From positions 1 through 64,000 of the forward strand of contig JANWVR010000103.1 in assembly GCA_025056735.1 (NCBI GenBank): a DNA stretch of 64,000 nucleotides. Reading direction: 5' to 3'. This DNA comes from Saprospiraceae bacterium (GTDB lineage: Bacteria; Bacteroidota; Bacteroidia; Chitinophagales; Saprospiraceae). The notes under the pieces were generated by a model. It saw nothing but the letters and a program-made list of their open reading frames with translations. It had not been told where the DNA came from and did no database searches. The translations under genes and the position numbers were made by a program. Positions 2,942 through 29,273 of the stretch are shown here, piece after piece. Numbering within the stretch: the stretch's first letter is position 1; each line of letters opens with the position of its first letter.

Positions 2942-3248
2942 TTACCGATTAAGCCTTTTTCATCCGCAAACATCCGAAAAGTCAATCGGTATTCTAACCC
3001 ATTGATACCTACTTTTTTCATACTATAAGCGGCTCATTGCGGCTCAAATTGTAACTGCCGAGGCCACCGACGACCGCGCCGACGGAAATAAGGTTCTGCA
3101 CTTCTCTGCGGCTCTCTGCAGTTTTTCTATGAAAAATTCAAAAATCTTTACGGCCTTTCGCCGTCAGAAAAAAGTTCAGAAAGCACAGCGACCTTCCTGA
3201 AAAACGGCTTACTTATTATTTTATTAAAGGTCACAGATATCTAACTTT

Positions 3249-3451
3249 CTTTAACCGCCCGATCCATCGGATGTAGTAGGCAAAACACCTCCTTCTCTAT
3301 CTGTAACCTCTTGACAAACACCCCATCATGAATGAACATCTCATGCCGAGCGGAAAGATTTGTCGGGAGGATAGAGCGTCCAGCCAAAACGGCTTCTGAT
3401 AGAAAGCGGGTCGCCAACAAGGCACTCCATCTAAGCAGTACATAACATCAG
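3249..3451 (+). repeat. Diverged or partial copy (A) of the dispersed MITE-like element
   Basis: TAACCGCCCGATCCATCGG (3252), TAACCTCTTGACAAACACCCCATCATGAATGA (3304), ATGCCGAGCGGAAAGATTTGTCGGGAGGATAGAGCGTC (3343) and CATAACATCAG (3441-3451) match copy B at nearly identical spacing (52, 91 and 191 nt versus 52, 90 and 190). Left end not recognisable. Confidence 0.7.
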
Positions 3452-11400: not shown

Positions 11401-13110
11401 CTACTGGTAGCGGCGTTTGCGGCGCCAGTGGAAGAAGATGCCGAACAGCGCTAAGAAGAGCAACGGAGCGCCGATGTTGAGCGCTTGCCAGAGCGGTTTT
11501 TCTTCTTTGGCGCGCACAGTGTCCAACAGGCGAAGTTTGACCTCGCGCGAGCGGGCCTCGATGACGCCTGAAGACTCGATGAGGTATTCCACCGCGTTGA
11601 TGAGCAGGTCGCGGTTGGCATAAGTGGCGTTCTCGAAGCGGTTGAAGCCCAACGGGAGCCATTCCTTTTTGGCTGGGTCGCGCACGAAGTTGGCCGCTAC
11701 ATCGCCATCGCTGATAACGATCATGCGCGTGGGCTGGCTTCGCGGTCGGAACTGCAGGCCGGCCTGGCGCAATCCTTCGGCCATTTGCTCCGACACGCGG
11801 TTTTCGTAGTTCGAAGGAAATTCCCCTTCCAGCAGCACGCCCAGCGTCTGATGGCCCTTGTTGAAGTACTCCGGCTTGAGCTCCTCGCCCATGATCTCAA
11901 AGCCTATTTCGATGGGGCTGAACTGCAGGCGGCTGTATCGGCTGCTGCGCAACAGCACAGTCTTGTTCACCGGCGTTTTGGTGCGGATGGTGTCTATGGA
12001 GGAGCAAAAGCGCAGTTCTACACGGTCTAAGTTTTTGACCACCGGATGGGCGCCTGTAGGCAGCACGGCTAAGTGATAGGGCCAGGGGAAGAGCCGGAAT
12101 TGCGGTGCATTGCCCACTACGCCCACTTGAAGCGGGATTTGCGTGCACTCCATATCGAGCACTAAATCAGGCTGAATGCGCACGCCATACTTGAAGAGCA
12201 TGTCCTCTAAGTTGAGCGGATAATCGCTGGGAATGAAGCGCTTCTGGTGGCGCAGGCTGTCTAAGCTGGCATTGAGGCGATCCACGAGCCACAGCACCTT
12301 TCCGCCGCCCATGATGTATTGATCCACGATGAACTTATCGCGCTCTGAAAAGGCCGTGCGCGGCTGGGCAATGATGAGCAGTTCGCACTTATCGGGCGGC
12401 AGGTGGATGATGGAGTCCAGCGCAATGCGGTCCGTGTCATAGAACTGCCGCAGCGAGCGCTCGAAGTCTTTGGTCTGAAGTTCGTCCAATTCTCCGTGTC
12501 CGCGCGTGAAGAGAATAATGGGCCGCCCTTTGGAGCGCAGTTTCTTGATGGCGTTGGCGAACTTGTACTCCAGCAGGCTAATGGAATTATTGATGACCTC
12601 ATCGGGCAGCAACGTGGGCGATTGGTTTTCCAAAAGGTTGACAATGACCTTGCGACTGCCGTAGTGAAAGACGGCTGTAGGATAGATAATTTGCGATTTG
12701 CTTTCGCCTTCGCCACGCACGTTGAGGTTGACCGGAGCGATGCCCTCTTCCAGCAGGGCTTTTCGGCGAGCATTGACTTCTTCCTTGCTGCCCTTGTTAG
12801 GGTCTTCAAACTGGTAGTCAATATAGCCGCTGACGCTGCGAAAGTCGTCCAGCATTTCGCGGGTAGCGGTGCGCAGGCGCTTGAAACCTGCCGGGAACTC
12901 CCCTTCGAGCAGCACGCGGACGTAGATGCGGTCGTCTATACTTTTGAGCAGCTCGCGCGTGGGCTTAGTGAGCGTGTAGCGCTTCTCCTCCGTCAAGTCT
13001 AAGTGTGTGTAGGCCTGATTGGCTAAGATGTTGATAAAAACTAAAATGCCGGCAAACAGGCCGAACTGCAACAGAGATTGCGTGCGTTGAGAACGTGGCA
13101 TAGTGTGCAA
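11401..13110 (-). CDS. gldG: Gliding-associated ABC transporter substrate-binding protein GldG
   Basis: 569 aa; FINILANQAYTHLDLTEEKRYTLTKPTRELLKSIDDRIYVRVLLEGEFPAGFKRLRTATREMLDDFRSVSG; C-terminal TM and RRKRRYQ. Confidence 0.92.
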   Translation of the reverse strand: MHTMPRSQRTQSLLQFGLFAGILVFINILANQAYTHLDLTEEKRYTLTKPTRELLKSIDDRIYVRVLLEGEFPAGFKRLRTATREMLDDFRSVSGYIDYQFEDPNKGSKEEVNARRKALLEEGIAPVNLNVRGEGESKSQIIYPTAVFHYGSRKVIVNLLENQSPTLLPDEVINNSISLLEYKFANAIKKLRSKGRPIILFTRGHGELDELQTKDFERSLRQFYDTDRIALDSIIHLPPDKCELLIIAQPRTAFSERDKFIVDQYIMGGGKVLWLVDRLNASLDSLRHQKRFIPSDYPLNLEDMLFKYGVRIQPDLVLDMECTQIPLQVGVVGNAPQFRLFPWPYHLAVLPTGAHPVVKNLDRVELRFCSSIDTIRTKTPVNKTVLLRSSRYSRLQFSPIEIGFEIMGEELKPEYFNKGHQTLGVLLEGEFPSNYENRVSEQMAEGLRQAGLQFRPRSQPTRMIVISDGDVAANFVRDPAKKEWLPLGFNRFENATYANRDLLINAVEYLIESSGVIEARSREVKLRLLDTVRAKEEKPLWQALNIGAPLLFLALFGIFFHWRRKRRYQ

Positions 13111-13120
13111 ATGTCGGCTG

Positions 13121-13128
13121 CAAAGGTA
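13121..13128 (-). promoter_or_regulatory. Bacteroidota -7 element (TACCTTTG) upstream of gldG
   Basis: CAAAGGTA on the + strand, 11 nt upstream of the ORF start; matches TAnnTTTG. Confidence 0.6.
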
Positions 13129-13159
13129 ATTTCTGTTCGGGCTGTAGGGTATTTACTCG

Positions 13160-13438
13160 CTGACCTTACGCAGACGGGGCATAATGCCGTTCGCCTAAGG
13201 TTGCATCTTCCTGTCGTGGTGGGCACATCACACATCCTGTAACCGCCCGATTTATCGGGTGGAACGGACGAAACTCTTCCACAACCACATATAACATCCT
13301 GATAAACAACACATCACGCATAGGACTGGATGCCAGAGTGGAAGATGTGTCAGAGGGATGGAACATCTAATGAAAAAGAGGATTACTAAGCAGGTGTGGC
13401 GCTGATAGGTTCTTCATTCAAGTCATGCGTAACATCAG
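13160..13438 (+). mobile_element. MITE-like element, full-length copy B (279 bp)
   Basis: TIRs CTGACCTTACGCAGAC / RC of right end CTGATGTTACGCATGAC; flanked by TTACTCG (13153-13159) and TTACTCA (13439-13445); colinear and same length as copy C. Confidence 0.8.
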
Positions 13439-13526
13439 TTACTCATTTCCTGACTCGAGACATGACAATTGCTGACGCTGTAATTCTTTTCCTGACCTTT
13501 GCTGTCCAATAAGGCACATCAGACAC

Positions 13527-14498
13527 ATGTTTGTAGTTACTGGAGCGGCAGGCTTTATCGGCTCGTGCATGGTGCGCCGGCTTGAAGACGCCGGCTACAA
13601 CGACGTAGTGGCCGTAGATGATTTCAGCCGCGCCGACAAAGAGCCCAACCTTGCTGGCAAACGCTTGCGCGAGCGCGTACACCGCGACCGCTTCCTCGCC
13701 TGGCTCGACGCACATTGGCGCGATGTGGAAGCCATCTTCCACTTGGGCGCGCGCACAGACACTACCGAAAAAGACACGACTGTCTTCGACGCGCTCAATC
13801 TGCACTATTCGCAGCAGCTATGGCAGCGCTGCGCCGAGTACAATATTCCCTTTCTTTACGCCAGCAGCGCCGCTACCTATGGCGCCGGCGAGCAGGGTTA
13901 CTCCGACGACCACGAACGCATCGCCCTGCTGCGGCCGCTCAACCCTTATGGCCAGAGCAAGCAGGACTTCGACATGTGGCTCCTGCAACAGGCGCCGCAA
14001 GCCGGCATCCCGTGGGCGGGTTTCAAATTCTTCAACGTCTATGGCCCCAACGAATACCACAAGGGCCGCATGGCGTCGGTGATCTTCCACACCGCACAGC
14101 AAATTCGCACCACAGGAAGCATGCGCCTCTTCCGCTCGCATCGGCCCGACTTCCGCGACGGTGAGCAGAGCCGCGACTTCATCTACGTCAAGGACGTCGT
14201 GGAAGTACTGCTGTTCTTTTTAGAAAAACGCCCGCCCAGCGCCATTTACAACCTCGGCACAGGCCAGGCACGCACGTTCTTAGACCTGGCACTCAACACC
14301 TTTCGAGCGATGGATGCCGAGCCGAACATCGCATTTATAGATACGCCTGCCGACATCCGCGACACCTATCAGTATTTCACAGAAGCCGATATGACAAAGC
14401 TGCGCCAGCAGGCAGGCTATAGCGCGCCTTTCTATTCCTTAGAAGACGGCACCGAGGACTATGTACGCGGCTATTTGCGCGAAAAACGATACTGGTGA
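13527..14498 (+). CDS. rfaD: ADP-L-glycero-D-manno-heptose 6-epimerase (extended SDR)
   Basis: 323 aa; VTGAAGFIGSCMVRRLEDAGYNDVVAVDDFSRADKEPNL; HLGARTDTTEKDTTVFDALN; YGQSKQDFDMW; FFNVYGPNEYHKGRMASVIFH. Confidence 0.93.
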   Translation: MFVVTGAAGFIGSCMVRRLEDAGYNDVVAVDDFSRADKEPNLAGKRLRERVHRDRFLAWLDAHWRDVEAIFHLGARTDTTEKDTTVFDALNLHYSQQLWQRCAEYNIPFLYASSAATYGAGEQGYSDDHERIALLRPLNPYGQSKQDFDMWLLQQAPQAGIPWAGFKFFNVYGPNEYHKGRMASVIFHTAQQIRTTGSMRLFRSHRPDFRDGEQSRDFIYVKDVVEVLLFFLEKRPPSAIYNLGTGQARTFLDLALNTFRAMDAEPNIAFIDTPADIRDTYQYFTEADMTKLRQQAGYSAPFYSLEDGTEDYVRGYLREKRYW

Positions 14499-28939: not shown

Positions 28940-28994
28940 AAGCCAAAGAAATCCGGCCCTCAACGCAACAGGTACCTGGAAGCCGTTTTTTTAA

Positions 28995-29273
28995 CTGACG
29001 CTACGCACGAGCGGCATGGAGCGTCCTGTCAGCGTCTAACCTGCTCGGTGAAAGCTTTGGCCGCCAAAGTCTGTATTCCTCTGAAAACCTCCCCCCAGCA
29101 CGACACATTCCTCCATGATGTGATGTCTGTCAGGATGTTAGATGAGGTGCAGGGATTGTCCTCCCCTATCCCACCCGATAAATCGGGCGGTTACAGGATG
29201 CTCGATGTGCTCGCCTCAACCGAACGACAATCCCAAGGGAGAACGGCATTCCGCCTCGCCTGCTTAAGGTCTG
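28995..29273 (-). mobile_element. MITE-like element, full-length copy C (279 bp, inverted relative to B)
   Basis: Flanked by TTTTTAA at 28988-28994 and 29274-29280 (TTAAAAA in element sense); termini CAGACCTTAAGCAGG... and ...GTGCGTAGCGTCAG; contains CATCCTGTAACCGCCCGATTTATCGGGTGG identical to copy B. Confidence 0.82.

Follow-up and report, generated by a model that had tools for sequence, protein, structure and literature searches.

The window, the whole 64,000-nucleotide stretch of Saprospiraceae DNA that was analyzed, carries a 279-bp segment (copy A) with gldG on one side and the ADP-heptose epimerase gene (rfaD) on the other, a second segment of exactly the same length in the opposite orientation (copy B), and the remains of a third. 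Copy A starts with CTGACCTTACGCAGAC at position 13160 and terminates with GCGTAACATCAG at position 13438, and re-inspection of the sequence gave the same coordinates, ends, and TTACTCG/TTACTCA flanks as the first-pass annotation of this DNA. The imperfect terminal inverted repeat (TIR) that it had described matches at 11 of 17 positions, its internal hairpin was located at 13243-13262, and the ORFs overlapping the segment are of 38 to 66 aa, three of the four extending beyond it, in line with the claim that no plausible ORF is present. The features are as follows:

13160..13438, plus strand: MITE copy A, 279 bp
13153..13159, no strand: left target duplication TTACTCG
13439..13445, no strand: right target duplication TTACTCA, 6 of 7 identical
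13160..13175, plus strand: left TIR CTGACCTTACGCAGAC, of ISAba11-group type
13423..13438, minus strand: right TIR, reverse complement CTGATGTTACGCATGA, the initial 13 nt being CTGATGTTACGCA
13224..13315, plus strand: embedded two-part REP-like unit (the core), 92 nt, model R1 match of 95.8 bits
13224..13239, plus strand: first direct motif CACATCACACATCCTG, 5' of the hairpin
13243..13262, plus strand: core hairpin CCGCCCGAT-TT-ATCGGGTGG, from covariation and DNA folding
13286..13301, plus strand: second direct motif CACATATAACATCCTG, with no hairpin after it
28995..29273, minus strand: MITE copy B, 279 bp, intergenic, with a MoxR-type ATPase gene on one side and a sigma-factor gene on the other
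28988..28994, no strand: copy B target duplication TTTTTAA
29274..29280, no strand: copy B target duplication TTTTTAA, 7 of 7 identical
29117..29209, minus strand: core within copy B, model match
3231..3451 (approximate), plus strand: decayed third copy, core plus right arm, end ACATAACATCAG; right-arm model match at 3329-3451

Copies A and B are 71.5% identical over aligned positions, so that their earlier description as matching is to be taken as clearly homologous, not near-identical; the alignment score was 174, compared with a mean of -62 and a maximum of -26 for shuffled sequence. The TIR of copy B also matches at 11 of 17 positions. The third copy, overlooked in the first pass, has lost its left arm beyond recognition, and TTATTGC adjoins its ACATAACATCAG end. 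In the genome to which the window belongs (G000; 3.74 Mb in 152 contigs), a blastn search returned 43 matches for the element at 69 to 88% identity, indicating old, diverged copies, and profile models of the arms found 39 left-arm and 30 right-arm matches. The arm models placed the family in two further genomes, G011 and G055, as well as in G000. The family consensus ends are CTGACCTTACGCAGGC and TGCGTARCATCAG, and 17 of 23 copies did not overlap any ORF of at least 150 aa. Two loci in G000, L004 (1455-1784, contig C96) and L023 (1340-1975, contig C126), contain truncated head-to-tail units, consisting of left arm and core with no right arm, within AAGTGAAAAATGAAAAG-like simple repeats.

Among the 14 two-ended copies, flank agreement at 7 bp was 0.54, compared with 0.37 for shuffled pairings (0 of 2000 shuffles); duplication lengths of 4 to 6 and 8 to 10 bp scored lower, and an end shift of 0,0 was the best of all shifts tested. 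Copy ends were placed by the best consensus match and are approximate for decayed copies, a procedure that should not produce a peak at 7 bp. This peak, together with the perfect TTTTTAA pair at copy B, bears out the 7-bp target-site-like repeats originally proposed. In addition to TTAAAAA/TTAAAAA (copy B, in element orientation) and TTACTCG/TTACTCA (copy A), the flank pairs included TCAATAA/TCAATGA, TTAATAA/TTAGTAA, and TTAATAA/TCAATAA; some copies had no clear duplication. Because A and T predominate next to the ends, a duplication of 5 bp could look like one of 7 bp, and a 5-bp reading that assigns one more terminal A/T to the element, in the way published for ISAba11, is possible; the duplication of an Acinetobacter IS (L159) can likewise be read as 5 or 7 bp.

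An empty site for copy B was found in G055: two contigs, C31 and C9, contain the corresponding intergenic region, recognized by its MoxR-type gene (82%) and its sigma-factor gene (70%), and lack the element. The two contigs read CGGCAAAGGTAAAG, 43 nt, and TTTTTTAAC, and the window reads CGGCAAAGGTAAAG, 43 nt, TTTTTTTAA, the element, and TTTTTAA. An identical 43 nt separate the conserved CGGCAAAGGTAAAG from TTTTTTAA in both contigs, which have a common 115-nt end, probably an assembly branch, and thus represent one or two observations. Copy A has no clean empty site because the gldG/rfaD junction around it is absent from G055, G011, and G002 and is unique to this genome; in those three relatives the element was found upstream of neither gene. 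The genes that border window positions 13110-13527 are separate in all three, and copy A therefore marks a rearrangement point. Three element loci are common to G000 and G011 (for example, L003/L089 and L039/L090), and the flanks of the remaining G000 loci examined were unmatched in G011 over the few hundred bases of flank compared.

The age and divergence of the copies and the few insertions common to G000 and G011 could fit ordinary conserved intergenic sequence, or a chance resemblance, that never moved. Dozens of copies at nonorthologous sites, the target duplications, and the empty site speak against this reading; the number of copies and the empty site suffice to refute it, and we assign it a negligible probability. 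The first-pass annotation had called for a BLASTn search for further copies and for empty sites in relatives, and both were found. On the basis of the copy family, the 7-bp flank peak, the copy B duplication, and the G055 empty site, the 279-base segment is a real MITE, combining a TIR, a target duplication, the lack of an ORF, small size, and dispersed copies.

The first-pass annotation had not recognized a described family for the ends; they match the ISAba11 group of the IS701 family. The right end of copy A, CTGATGTTACGCA, is identical to the ends of named ISAba11-group IS and is the TIR in ISAba11-group IS of Cyanobacterium, Acinetobacter, Stanieria, and Thiothrix. Four of five plasmid homologues checked terminate in CTGATGTTACGCA; for the remaining homologue, from Piscirickettsia, the same end test gave no TIR. 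A transposase gene with matching ends, as the first pass had suggested looking for, was present in a relative of the same genus:

G022, locus L147, 770-1975: intact IS, 1206 bp, TIR CTGACATTACGCACCC (16 of 16), duplication TTGGTAA (7 of 7)

Its 370-aa protein (P0002) matched the NCBIfam model transpos_IS701_2 with 272 bits (cutoff, 250), and its best plasmid match is annotated "group ISAba11 transposase." PF01609 loci were screened in six genomes, and the G022 element alone had matching ends. Among the 42 genus genomes searched, the ISAba11-type transposase was intact only in G022, fragmented in G019, and a broken relic in G002, and it was undetected in G000, G011, and G055, so that the match of enzyme to element rests on the likeness of its ends to those of elements in other genomes. 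Since the element is nonautonomous and no transposase of the group was detected in G000, it is described here as having ends of ISAba11 type, not as a member IS. A single IS copy was available in the genus for comparison of the duplication.

Ends of this type also bound elements with other contents. In G055, CTGACCTTACGCAGGC ends were enriched (33 matches, compared with 2 for a reversed-pattern control) and bound a 300-bp MITE with other cargo, one copy of which (L123) has a perfect TCAGTAA duplication; this family, with the interior sequences CACGAATGCACGAATG and ATTCGTGCATTCGTGG, was seen at L095, L099, L101, L105, L121, L123, L124, and L128. In G022, CTGATGTTACGCAGGC ends bound a 486-bp element (L115, 1137-1622) and a 143-bp element (L116, 1980-2122), the latter flanked by TTTACAA/TTTACAG, and both MITEs co-occur with the intact IS701-type element.

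The element resembles ISAba11-group IS in its CTGA-Y/T-n-TTACGCA end and short AT-rich target duplication, and the intact IS of the genus encodes an IS701-type transposase; it differs in having no coding sequence, imperfect TIRs, a 7-bp duplication, and a REP-like passenger. The published duplications are 5 bp for ISAba11 (PMC7885321) and 4 bp for IS701 (PMC2266710). No MITE of the ISAba11 group was found in the open-licence literature searched. MITEAba12 of Acinetobacter (PMC6382973) is similarly nonautonomous, resembles its parent IS only in the TIRs, and has spread in intergenic regions, but it is 113 bp long, with IS5-like ISAba12 ends, a 9-bp duplication, and no embedded repeat (PMC6382973). 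BrickBuilt of Porphyromonas gingivalis (PMC4596501) is likewise a composite MITE of the Bacteroidota with another kind of repeat inside; in that case, however, the internal repeat is a tandem minisatellite of 23 nt instead of a hairpin unit associated with another transposase (PMC4596501). The end type is already known, and within the open-licence literature searched, the composite build and the repeat with a Y1 partner are the new part.

The internal hairpin was not recognized in the first pass as part of a separate, widespread, Y1-linked repeat. The core, of about 92 nt, consists of CACATCnnnCATCCTGTAAC, the hairpin, about 25 variable nt, and CACATCTAnCATCCTGACAAACATCACATC; the 14-nt motif CATCTAnCATCCTG occurs in direct repeat, with the hairpin after the first copy only. 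Among 47 sequences, 96.3% of the cells of the 8-bp hairpin were paired, with 54 doubly changed cells compared with 14.6 after shuffling and a covariation of 0.491 compared with 0.178; relatedness of the sequences inflates the contrast with shuffling, and slid controls, which retain that relatedness, also collapse. The copy A hairpin has G-U and A-U pairs on the plus strand, and the G-U pairs point to that strand. GTAA precedes the stem in nearly all copies, and a test for a GT[AG]G stem foot was negative. Left-arm covariation was not predicted, and none of eight loci had an Rfam match up to an E value of 1.

Model R1 detected the core in 18 of the 42 genus genomes, including G000 (51 matches) and G020 (69 matches), and many of the matches form inverted pairs 14 to 19 nt apart; the core therefore exists outside the MITE. 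In an exact-match scan of named genomes, which may miss variants and left out the genome of the window, the hairpin unit occurred only in Saprospiraceae bacterium SKYG46 (the genome here termed G011). Inverted pairs in G000 (L037, 3290-3960, on contig C70, and also on C2, C125, C101, and C56) contain two hairpin types, beginning with CCGCCCGAT and with CCCTCCGG or CCCTCTGA, and are flanked by GGAAACTGGAGTTTCC-like palindromes.

In G012, cores cluster around the gene for a 145-aa Y1 transposase (P0001; PF01797, 85 bits; motifs DHVH and YLKKQEIHH) that is similar to TnpA chains of known structure, 2xm3 among them. Among Y1 genes of at least 63% identity, cores lie on both sides, facing inward, in G012 (two loci), G020, G046, and G017, often a few bases from the Y1 stop codon, and on at least one side of or near the gene in G023, G008, and G005. 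The repeat variant shifts together with the Y1 protein clade: G020, G046, and G017 have CATCTTG with CATCTTTACAAAACATCAGCATC, and G012 has CATCCTG with CATCCTGACAAACATCACATC. The Y1 proteins beside cores carry DHVH and Y---Q--HH and thereby the signature of TnpA-Y1 subclass 1.2, described in a 2018 survey with DH[IV]H, Y---Q--HH, and a length of about 148 aa (PMC6006769). They agree with that subclass in both motifs, in their 145-aa length, in their occurrence in Bacteroidota, and in low gene copy number; the survey describes terminal structures as generally missing and lists no REP or secondary structures, and in this respect the genes found here differ, being flanked by a multicopy structured repeat (PMC6006769). 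The repeats of REP/REPIN-RAYT systems (PMC3116915, PMC6006769, PMC8266576) resemble the core in having a hairpin with a short 5' motif, dispersal, inverted pairs, and a flanked Y1 (HUH) gene. The core differs in being a two-part unit of about 92 nt with CATCTAnCATCCTG repeated and one hairpin, in having GTAA and not GTAG or GTGG before the stem, and in a partner protein with the subclass 1.2 signature in place of a classical TnpA-REP.

In all full MITE copies the core has an identical place and orientation, which argues for a single acquisition before amplification, and a variable triplet, AAA/GAG-like in MITE-borne cores and TAC in paired cores, fits separate lineages. Neither G000 nor G011 yielded a version of this MITE backbone that lacks the core. 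Two shorter G011 loci, L080 and L085, were considered as coreless MITEs; L080 keeps core remnants, and the two therefore look like internal deletions. In the G000 copies, the core halves were 0.82 and 0.79 identical, compared with 0.57 to 0.64 for the arms and 0.55 for the 25-nt spacer between the halves. Because these copies were found largely via the core, the excess is no proof of selection; in G011 copies located by their arms, the core halves were 0.63 and 0.61 identical, compared with 0.53 to 0.57, implying that ascertainment accounts for some of the G000 signal.

The compensatory hairpin changes and the conservation of both core halves around a divergent spacer could also indicate that the core is kept in the MITE as a host-functional element (an RNA structure, an mRNA end, or a protein-binding site) and not as a passenger. 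We consider this unlikely, given the small core excess in arm-found G011 copies, the lack of an Rfam match, and promoter- and terminator-like sites inside the element that were not above expectation; moreover, selection by a Y1 transposase would give the same covariation.

Alternatively, a Y1/HUH transposase might have moved the whole 279-bp element via the core, the TIRs being incidental: the core is clearly a Y1-associated repeat and the best-conserved part of the G000 copies, and the truncated tandem units on C96 and C126 stop at its 3' boundary. Target duplications and TIRs, however, are DDE hallmarks and are not known to arise by IS200/IS605-type transposition, the 7-bp duplication is statistically firm, and G055 and G022 contain coreless MITEs that share these ends and the duplication; mobilization of the whole element by Y1/HUH is accordingly disfavored and appears quite improbable.

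The best explanation, and on the sequence comparisons very likely the correct one, is an ISAba11-group MITE that carries a Y1-linked REP-like passenger. The element would be a nonautonomous DDE transposon of the ISAba11 group, IS701 family, on whose CTGA..TTACGCA ends an ISAba11-type transposase would act in trans, excising it and inserting it at AT-rich, TTA-n-TAA-like targets with a short duplication of 7 bp, or of 5 bp by the published convention. An ancestor of the MITE would have gained one 92-nt REP-like unit of a subclass 1.2 Y1 (HUH) transposase and then spread with that unit as a passenger, and independently the Y1 transposase would spread the same unit through the genus as inverted, REPIN-like pairs. 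The ends, the duplications, the empty site, the copy family, the covariation of the hairpin, and the association of gene and repeat are seen in the sequences themselves; the assignment of movements to enzymes, the single acquisition, and the present immobility are inferred. Against this explanation, the two TIRs of copy A agree at no more than 11 of 17 positions, several copies have no clear duplication, ISAba11 duplications have been published as 5 bp and not 7 bp, no coreless backbone in G000 or G011 shows the core as an insertion, and the ISAba11-type transposase was undetected in G000, G011, and G055, as was the Y1 transposase in G000. With no Y1_Tnp gene, and thus neither transposase, detected in the G000 assembly, the family there is probably a relic, as far as draft assemblies can show, and it probably is one in G011 and G055 with regard to the ISAba11-type enzyme, and the element would now be mostly immobile.

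It also seems reasonably probable that subclass 1.2 Y1 transposases have a cognate 92-nt two-part repeat, with a duplicated recognition motif and one hairpin, that makes up the inverted termini of the gene unit and of REPIN-like pairs and that was captured, in addition, by a DDE MITE; two unrelated transposition systems would then act on a single repeat. The repeat would then be a likely DNA partner for an HUH transposase subclass for which the 2018 survey reports none, and its spread by two unrelated mechanisms would bear on the persistence of REP-like sequences after transposase loss. The pairs of repeat variant and transposase clade constitute ready cognate pairs whose recognition is testable in vitro. 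In G023 (L058, 2233-2420), a tandem array of hairpin halves lies beside the Y1 gene and merges into a GTGAGTGCGGGG repeat. More distant Y1 genes of the genus (50 to 56%) have different palindromes nearby; those at L061, L063, and L064 lie between palindromes resembling CCCCGGCTTCAGCCGGGG or GCCCCGCCCTTCAGGGCGAGG, which may be additional cognate repeats.
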